Source: Mactra quadrangularis
Taxonomy: Eukaryota; Mollusca; Bivalvia; Venerida; Mactridae
Reading direction: 5' to 3'
DNA: 64,000 nt
NCBI GenBank assembly: GCA_025267735.1
Contig: CM046308.1
Span: forward strand, 36,135,267 to 36,199,266
The notes beneath the pieces were generated by a model. It was not told the DNA's origin and searched no databases. It saw only the letters and a list, made by a program, of their open reading frames with translations. The translations under genes were made by a program, and so were the position numbers. This document shows positions 12,574-15,500 of the stretch, one piece after another; position 1 is the stretch's first letter, and each line of letters starts with the position of its first letter.

Positions 12574-15500
12574 GTATGTATAGCACAGTGGTACTCGGAT
12601 ACTTTACCTATATTTGAGGTATGTATAGCACAGTGGTACTCGGATACTTTACCTATATTTGAGGTATGTATAGCACAGTGGAACTTGGATACTTTACCTA
12701 TATTTGAGGTATGTATAGTACAGTGGAACTCTGATACTTTACCTATATTTGAGGTATGTATAGCACAGTGAAACTCGGATACTTTACCTATATTTGAGGT
12801 ATGTATAGCACAGTGGAACTCGGATACTTTACCTATATTTGAGGTATGTATAGCACAGTGAAACTTGGATACCTTACCTATATTTGAGGTATGTATAGCA
12901 CAGTGGAACTCTGATACCTTACCTATATTTGAGGTATGTATAGCACAGTGAAACTTGGATACCTTACCTATATTTGAGGTATGTATAGCACAGTGGAACT
13001 CGGATACTTTACCTATATTTGAGGTATGTATAGCTCAGTGGAACTCGGATACTTTACCTATATTTGAGGTATGTATAGTACAGTGGAACTCTGATACTTT
13101 ACCTATATTTGAGGTATGTATAGCACAGTGGAACTCGGATACTTTACCTATATTTGAGGTATGTATAGCACAGTGGAACTTGGATACTTTACCTATATTT
13201 GAGGTATGTATAGCACAGTGGAACTCGGATACTTTACCTATATTTGAGGTATGTATAGCACAGTGGAACTCGGATACTTTACCTATATTTGAGGTATGTA
13301 TAGCACAGTGGAACTCGGATACTTTACCTATATTTGAGGTATGTATAGCACAGTGGAACTCTGATACTTTACCTATATTTGAGGTATGTATAGCACAGTG
13401 GAACTCGGATACTTTACCTATATTTGAGGTATGTATAGCACAGTGGAACTCAGATACCTTACCTATATTTGTGGGGTATGTAGCACAGTGGAACTCTGAT
13501 ACTTTACCTAATTTGAGGTATGTATAGCACAGTGGAACTCGGATACTTTACCTATATTTGAGGTATGTATTGCTCAGTGGAACTCTGATACTTTACCTAT
13601 ATTTGAGGTATGTATAGCACAGTGGAACTCGGATACTTTACCTATATTTGAGGTATGTAATCTACTTTAAATCCCAAATGCTTACAGCCCATCTGGCTAG
13701 CTCAGTCGGTAGGGCACATGTCTACTGATTTAGGGGTTGTAGGTTTGATTCCTCGGGGGCATACTTTCGTGGAGCTTGGTCATGAAATAATTGTCTTTGG
13801 CCATTTTTCCTCCTCCCACTGATTTTAAATCATGTAGGGCAGTAGTCAGTCACTGACAAAAGTATGATCCTAGTAGTTGGTTAACAGCTAATTCCAGAGA
13901 TTTAATCTTTCCGGGAACAGTGAGTAGGTAGACTGACAGCTGTGATACAATCTATACAATGTGTTGCTACAGCATTAAATCAAACTAACAAAATAAAACC
14001 CTGAAAACCATACCAGTTTTGTCTGCAAATTAAGTCTGATATATGCATCATATGATATCCAAAATGTAATAAATAAGACTATACCTAATGTGAAAACAGT
14101 TCAATACCATGTGATTACTATAATAAAAGGATAGGTAGAACTTGTATACAATTGTGAACATGTGTGCGAATATGACCTTAAGTTTTCAAATTACTTTTTG
14201 AAATTTCAAGGTTTTGATTCCACAACGATGATTTACTTACATTTGTATATCCTTTAAAATTTTGATTGTTCATGATGACTTGACATTGTTTGACTGTACA
14301 TGCACTATGCCAATATAAAGAACATTATATTTGGTTAAATAATAGTAGTTTTAGTATTATCATTATAATTATTAAGAGTTAATGGAATGTGAAATGTTAT
14401 GCTTTGTGAATTTTATGGGTTGTAACATAAAATGACTATGAAACATCAACAACACATATAGTTCTAGAGATATATTGTGATCATAATATAATTTTATGCT
14501 AAAATGTGAATTTTATGGGCTATTACATGTAATCTGATTTCATGACTTTTAATGGTCCAGTAAATCCGAAACATTAAGTCATATTCATGTATATAGATAT
14601 GTATTGCCTTTTACTGTATTGGGTTTTTTATAGTCAATGTTTAGGCTTGTATAGATTTTCAGTAGGGCAGCATATCTTCCATGCATTTTGATACGATATG
14701 AGTCCCTATACAGAAGCCGTGATACCATATGCCAGGCTTTGCGAAAGTTGCCGGACCGTCAGACATGTCTAGCAAAATTGGACAGGTCAGACATATTTTC
14801 AGAGTTCCCGACCTTATGTTCAGCAGAGGTCTGTTGTTAATTTACTGAATAAAAATTAAAGCAATAAAGGTATTCATAAATTTGAAGAAAAAAAAATTGG
14901 GGTGTGACAAATAACTTTCAGTCAGACAAGAATTGGAAGTCTGTCTGACCCTATGTCAGGCAAAGTTTTCAGCAGTTTTTTTTTAGCAAAGCCTGATATG
15001 TTTTCACAAAATTAAAAAACAGAATGAAATGTTTTTGTTTTGAAATTCTTGCCATTGTATTAACCACTATGATAATTTCTATGAAAAAAGTTTGTATTAA
15101 CTACATGACAAAATGATTGGGGTAAAACAGCATCTTAAACTACTATGAAATTAAAGATTTTATGCAGAACTCAAGTTGGTAAGTTTTTTTCAGCTGAATT
15201 TTTGTTTGTTTGTTTTGAATGTACCTGTGCAGAATAAAGTTGAAGTGAAAATGTGTGTACACTGTCACAACAATAGGATTTAATCTGTGCTGTGTGTCTT
15301 CAGCAATAAATTAATATATAAAGTAATTTCCATTCTTTGGTTGCCTTCCATACAATCTTAACTTGTTCAGCTAAAAAAAACAACATAAACTTGAGTTCTG
15401 AAATGAACTATGATTGTATAAGGTTGGGTTTTAGGATATTATTTGGTTTCTATGCCCAATTAGTTAAACCATCATTGATTCATGTACAGTTTACTATAAT

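Follow-up and report, generated by a model that had tools for sequence, protein, structure and literature searches.

Arrays of near-identical splice donors and splice acceptors at two exon junctions of the UGDH gene in the clam Mactra quadrangularis

Introduction

Minisatellites that begin at a splice donor and repeat it are known from human genes, and an arrangement of this kind is found in the UDP-glucose dehydrogenase gene (UGDH) of the bivalve Mactra quadrangularis, within a stretch of 64,000 nucleotides (assembly GCA_025267735.1, contig CM046308.1, positions 36,135,267 to 36,199,266 of the forward strand). This whole stretch is called the window, and positions are counted from its first letter. 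The UGDH product makes UDP-glucuronate, which is required for proteoglycans and detoxification. In the clam gene, a 45-bp minisatellite carries 25 donors after the first coding exon (array 1), and a 42-bp minisatellite carries 12 acceptors before exon 4 (array 2).

The minisatellite of human IFI6 (6-16, G1P3), which has a 12-bp unit, was reportedly described by Turri et al. in 1995 (Nucleic Acids Res 23:1854), and we know of no acceptor array in that gene. Two of its downstream repeat units act as donors, giving three mRNAs (PMC4526556). In human ABCA7, a variable number of tandem repeats (VNTR) in intron 18, with a 25-bp unit and 23.7 units in the reference, directly follows exon 18 and opens with the two bases of the canonical donor. 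Of three alternative events quantified in ABCA7, the one that uses the donor one unit further on makes up 2 ± 1% of isoforms, a value assigned by taking the source's "respectively" in order of mention; this isoform does not change with VNTR length, whereas skipping of the next exon does (relevant parts of PMC5954066).

Short, tandemly copied segments containing splice-site-like sequence have also been linked to intron gain. In fission yeast SPOG_01682/SOCG_00815, an intron gained by tandem duplication spans several copies (relevant part of PMC3629103), and in potato RdRp, a duplicated segment associated with intron gain crosses an intron–exon boundary (relevant part of PMC4974935). As those parts describe them, both cases resemble the clam locus in their tandem copies, but new introns arose in them, whereas in the clam an existing phase-0 intron was apparently lengthened, which calls for no new one. 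Array 1 lies inside that intron, the relatives being compared as proteins.

A donor-carrying minisatellite after the first coding exon

The window holds a complete UGDH coding sequence at 12415–31442 on the plus strand, comprising 11 coding exons and encoding 477 residues; all 10 coding introns are GT-AG, and the gene is intact and colinear with its relatives. The original prediction, which described array 1, had named the gene UGDH, and three domains of the predicted protein bear this out: the N-terminal, middle, and C-terminal UDPG_MGDP_dh Pfam domains (PF03721, PF00984, and PF03720) all score above cutoff. Residues 3–466 are matched by solved UDP-glucose 6-dehydrogenases, and the closest protein among the matches listed, a hypothetical protein of Mactra antiquata, is identical at 460 of 477 positions (96%). 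The gene thus reads as a full-length UDP-glucose dehydrogenase.

Array 1 (12533–13659, plus strand) begins within the first coding part of UGDH (12415–12573, 53 codons from ATG to GAG) and continues past the genuine donor. Tandem Repeats Finder gives it a period of 45, 25.1 copies, 94% matches, and a score of 2030, the highest among its 14 rows for the window. At this spacing stand 25 GT donors, from the genuine one at 12574 and the next at 12619 to the last at 13653; with a slash at the exon–intron junction, 24 of them read GAG/GTATGTA, the exception being GGG/GTATGTA at 13476. The 25 donors delimit 24 units; 22 are exactly 45 bp long, and two irregular ones of 47 and 42 bp (13429–13517) shift the frame. 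The commonest unit type accounts for 9 of the 24, the others carry one to three changes each, and two contain indels; the mean difference between units is 1.8 of 45 bases (22 units), and neighbouring units are no more alike than shuffled ones (lag 1, P = 0.47; lag 2, P = 0.11; 22 units). On the plus strand, GGTATGTA occurs 25 times inside array 1 and once elsewhere in the 64 kb. These counts agree with the predicted 45-base unit of exon end plus donor, repeated about 24 times after the genuine donor and adding about 24 near-identical donors. What had been called exon 1 is the first coding exon, and a 5′ untranslated region (UTR) exon is probably present upstream, since an acceptor-like TATATTTTCAG (TTTCAG) ends at 12402, directly before ATACCACACAAG-ATG. 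If this acceptor is used, the ATG-bearing exon starts at 12403 and is 171 nt long up to donor 1.

The predicted U1 duplex energy, computed with the U1 5′ end sequence, is −8.8 kcal/mol at 23 of the 25 donors and −8.1 and −8.5 kcal/mol at the remaining two; elsewhere in the gene, nine donors span −5.3 to −13.5 kcal/mol. Since nearly all copies share the donor and have near-equal predicted U1 pairing, their own sequence hardly distinguishes them.

Array 1 starts at and repeats the donor that follows a coding exon, "genuine" resting here on colinearity with the relatives' proteins, and by this layout it belongs with the donor-carrying minisatellites of the IFI6 and ABCA7 kind. The IFI6 unit is shorter, and splicing has been measured in IFI6, whereas in the clam it is predicted from the sequence. 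The ABCA7 repeat likewise stands right after an exon and starts with the canonical donor, but its 25-bp unit shifts the frame and begins at the GT, whereas the 45-bp clam unit is in frame and includes 38–41 coding bases; an acceptor array is absent from the relevant parts of PMC5954066. Because donor-carrying minisatellites were already known, from human IFI6 and ABCA7, the novelty implied by the original prediction was too high.

Reading frame and protein consequences of array 1

The junction after the first coding exon is phase 0, as is intron 3. Donors 1–5 are in frame and open, adding zero to four modules: through donors 12619, 12664, 12709, and 12754, the four open units at 12574–12753 would add 15, 30, 45, and 60 residues before the PGL with which exon 2 starts, as had been foreseen. 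The four modules do have 15 residues, but none has exactly the sequence first given for them; they come in three variants, one occurring twice. The first in-frame TGA (12769–12771) is included if any of donors 6–25 is used, in line with the earlier statement that later donors include TGA, and donors 21–25 are additionally out of frame. Across the array, TGA occurs in three units and a frame shift in two.

An insert from array 1 would lengthen the distance between the landmarks GAGYVGGP and P-x-[FYH]-E-P by at least 15 residues. Of the 120 UGDH proteins listed, which are the best of 8000 scored, 118 hold both landmarks and the other two lack the N-terminal one; the distance is 32 residues in 115 proteins, 33 in one, and 34 in two, and none of the 118 contains an inserted module. 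The clam distance through the first donor is 32, so that the colinear animal protein corresponds to that donor, as proposed. Two LP[IL][FY]E motifs in one protein were found in none of the 120, and with the repeated stretch of a putative +4 isoform as query, none of 2673 candidate proteins matched at E <= 0.001. Because annotated proteins are no isoform survey, these results leave room for insert isoforms at a low level.

The insertion point falls between E53 and P54, which are conserved in an alignment of 19 proteins; the G of PGL is less constant, being present in 93 of the 120. The predicted structure of the M. antiquata protein, for which 19 of the 120 listed sequences were aligned, places residues 53/54 in a coil between helices 38–44 and 56–63. 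The mean predicted local distance difference test score (pLDDT) is just 72.6 and the predicted template modelling score 0.50, with block pLDDT values of 88 and 79 near residues 53/54; therefore, local secondary structure alone is taken from this model.

An acceptor-carrying minisatellite before exon 4

Array 2 (16646–17130, plus strand), which the original prediction did not include, covers the end of intron 3 and the first nine bases of exon 4 of the same gene. Tandem Repeats Finder gives a 42-bp unit and 11.5 copies. Twelve acceptors stand at exact 42-base steps from 16659 to 17121; nine read exactly ATTATAATTTCAG, and three differ from it by one base. Only the last, ending at 17121, yields UGDH, the start of exon 4 being placed there by colinearity; each of the 11 upstream acceptors leads to four residues and then TAA at the fifth codon. 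By this arrangement, array 2 is an acceptor-carrying minisatellite whose last copy is the genuine acceptor.

In the best upstream unit, the bases after the acceptor agree with the exon 4 start at 8 of 9 positions and, over 21 positions, at 13. The best match to any of 10 other exon starts is 5 of 9, and among AG-preceded stretches at 18500–45000 (n = 1287), 8 of 9 is reached in 2 and 13 of 21 in 6. The resemblance of the bases after the upstream acceptors to the exon 4 start suggests that this unit, too, spans an intron–exon junction, and it probably does so in an older form. The unit is itself a rough dimer of two 21-mers, alike at 15 of 21 bases, which allows more than one origin for array 2.

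Literature searches of narrow scope, directed at splice sites and repeats, listed no acceptor-array counterpart; as far as they tell, the acceptor array and the presence of both arrays in one gene appear to be new.

Coincidence with splice junctions

In a placement test designed after the arrays had been seen, random positions within the window were drawn 100,000 times for five arrays with units of 41–51 bp; these arrays derive from the 14 Tandem Repeats Finder rows, with two overlapping rows merged and short or two-copy rows omitted. At least one array touched a UGDH junction in 11% of placements and at least two in 0.5%. When both in-gene arrays were placed within the gene and placements covering more than 60 exon bases were rejected, at least one array touched a junction in 18% and two in 1.0%; without this rejection, both did so in 14.4%, and requiring a junction no further than one unit from an edge of the array gave 0.7% for two.

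The three other arrays (45143–49543) lie outside UGDH; on both strands, the patterns used picked out one donor-like motif in them and none resembling an acceptor. Two of them, at 46726–47280 and 49365–49543, consist of a nearly identical 41-bp unit about 2 kb apart, and neither has a donor or acceptor motif by these patterns.

Position as the probable basis of splice-site choice

We consider it likely, at a probability of roughly 70%, that both arrays are minisatellites arising from duplication of a junction, in which the donor or acceptor on the exon side is used by virtue of its position, with low-level use of the next donors. From the genomic sequence we infer that exon definition would guide this choice at both ends. 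The ATG-bearing exon would grow from 171 nt at donor 1 to 1250 nt at donor 25, and pairing across the short exon would favour the nearest donor, making the first the most likely one to be used; the next one or few donors would probably be used at a low level, yielding either UGDH lengthened by one to four of the 15-residue modules or substrates for decay. Exon 4 measures 198 nt from the last acceptor and 660 nt from the first, and the last copy, nearest exon 4, would have to be the one used. In both arrays the functional sites are the copies nearest their exons, which fits exon definition. Equal use of every donor and acceptor copy would leave just 1 in 300 transcripts encoding normal UGDH. 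Three options had originally been offered, namely preference for the first donor, isoforms with a variable insert, and control of output through unproductive splicing; the first is the most likely, because of the ABCA7 precedent and the lack of a protein match for the insert region.

Several points weigh against this reading. Where two strong donors compete, splicing often goes to the intron-proximal one, and by that rule the late donors would be favoured here. SRSF1 and enhancers between sites can favour the intron-proximal donor (relevant part of PMC5585400), and in brain area BA10, alternative ABCA7 isoforms exceeded canonical ones in 90% of cases, chiefly through exon 19 skipping (relevant parts of PMC5954066). 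The 2% isoform of ABCA7 is frameshifting and open to decay, so true use of its donor may be higher. In array 1, the eight variable positions, taken from 22 of the 24 units with the two indel units dropped, all lie outside a run of 23 of the 45 bases around the donor (P = 0.024, post hoc), and five of the nine distinct changes, one of which comes from an indel unit and one of which is probably the ancestral state, are synonymous (P = 0.02, post hoc). The unvaried run and the excess of synonymous changes are weak hints of constraint, not neutrality. All 24 extra donors of array 1 retain their GT; an unvaried donor 9-mer, however, would arise by chance about one time in seven (P = 0.14), the corresponding test on array 2 gives P = 0.52, and three units of array 1 carry TGA, all of which speaks against constraint. 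With regard to selection on the array 1 donors, these statistics are taken as evidence neither way, and they give no solid sign of function.

The possibility that array 1 generates in-frame isoforms as in human IFI6, with the first few donors used to a measurable extent and 15–60 residues added to a loop of the N-terminal domain, is unlikely. The unit length of 45 is a multiple of three, four units are open, the insert would retain ...SDTLPIFE immediately before PGL, residues 53/54 fall in the predicted coil, and the downstream repeat donors of IFI6 do give three mRNAs (relevant part of PMC4526556); low-level use of this kind, the second of the original options, may occur. The insert, however, has no counterpart in the 2673 candidates searched or in the 118 measurable relatives, and E53 and P54 are conserved, though the following G is less so. 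Less likely still is control of dosage, in which copy number would lower or raise UGDH output through decoy donors, decay, exon 2 skipping, or U1-mediated protection of the transcript. Premature stops would follow from 20 of the 25 donors and 11 of the 12 acceptors, and a longer ABCA7 VNTR goes with lower expression and more exon 19 skipping, but decay of the cryptic isoforms does not account for the lower ABCA7 expression (relevant parts of PMC5954066), and nothing at the clam locus speaks for regulation or for the third original option. That the arrays are an assembly artefact, the true locus holding one or a few units, is very improbable: a 1.1-kb repeat can be mis-sized in assembly, and the unit number of array 1 may still be off, but the units differ from one another and array 2, of the same style, sits about 3 kb away.

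Origin of the arrays

Positions 12533–12577, comprising 41 exon bases and the first four intron bases (GTAT), may have been duplicated head to tail, possibly across a 3-base match, and then expanded on the intron side; GTA opens this exon segment and recurs after GTAT at the 3′ end of array 1. A single duplication across this match would account for the junction, although the match alone is weak evidence. Directly after the last copy, the intron sequence opens with GTATGTAATC, the likely ancestral intron start before the repeat. As the units differ by so few bases, array 1 would be young or homogenised, and its outermost copy is still the exon end, leaving the protein unchanged. Array 2 would be the mirror image, its acceptor copied upstream of exon 4. 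Both would then have grown into introns as junction-spanning minisatellites and been tolerated since the exon-side copy is chosen by position; we infer that they are by-products of junction duplication, not evolved regulators.

Gene structure and neighbouring sequence

The remaining coding exons lie on the plus strand at 15523–15660 (exon 2, starting CCT GGT TTA), 16017–16181 (exon 3), 17122–17319 (exon 4, VLSNPEF...), 17724–17871, 18873–18967, 19552–19682, 20525–20620, 27832–27872, 28547–28638, and 31272–31442, with the stop in the last. A search of 10000–32000 against Rfam revealed no known structured RNA, and ARAGORN found no tRNA gene in the window. Just past array 1, at 13689–13770, a tRNA-like sequence (GGCTAGCTCAGTCGGTAGG...) looks like the head of a short interspersed nuclear element (SINE), and it matches 43109–43167 at 80% over 59 bases. 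On the minus strand, long open reading frames (ORFs) of 946 and 1617 codons at 52967–61886 (also 63331–63642 and 56480–56776) contain many thrombospondin type-1 like repeats, recognised by eye, and an ORF at 36725–37051 contains VMLHGSETWAVSANTLRRLQLNDQAIIRW, which resembles the end of a retrotransposon reverse transcriptase.

Implications

A broader and speculative proposal, which we think improbable as it stands, is that splice junctions in the clam lineage themselves seed minisatellites, a short direct repeat at the exon edge starting the duplication and selection on the exon-side copy forcing growth toward the intron; many genes would then carry such arrays, with their length tuning splicing across individuals. 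If true, UGDH would display both directions, with donors growing 3′ and acceptors growing 5′. What makes the locus interesting is no new mechanism but the natural competition test that it offers: UGDH presents 25 near-identical donors and 12 near-identical acceptors whose sequence strength is approximately constant while their position varies, and counts of junction reads would give the position rule directly, in both directions and from one transcript.
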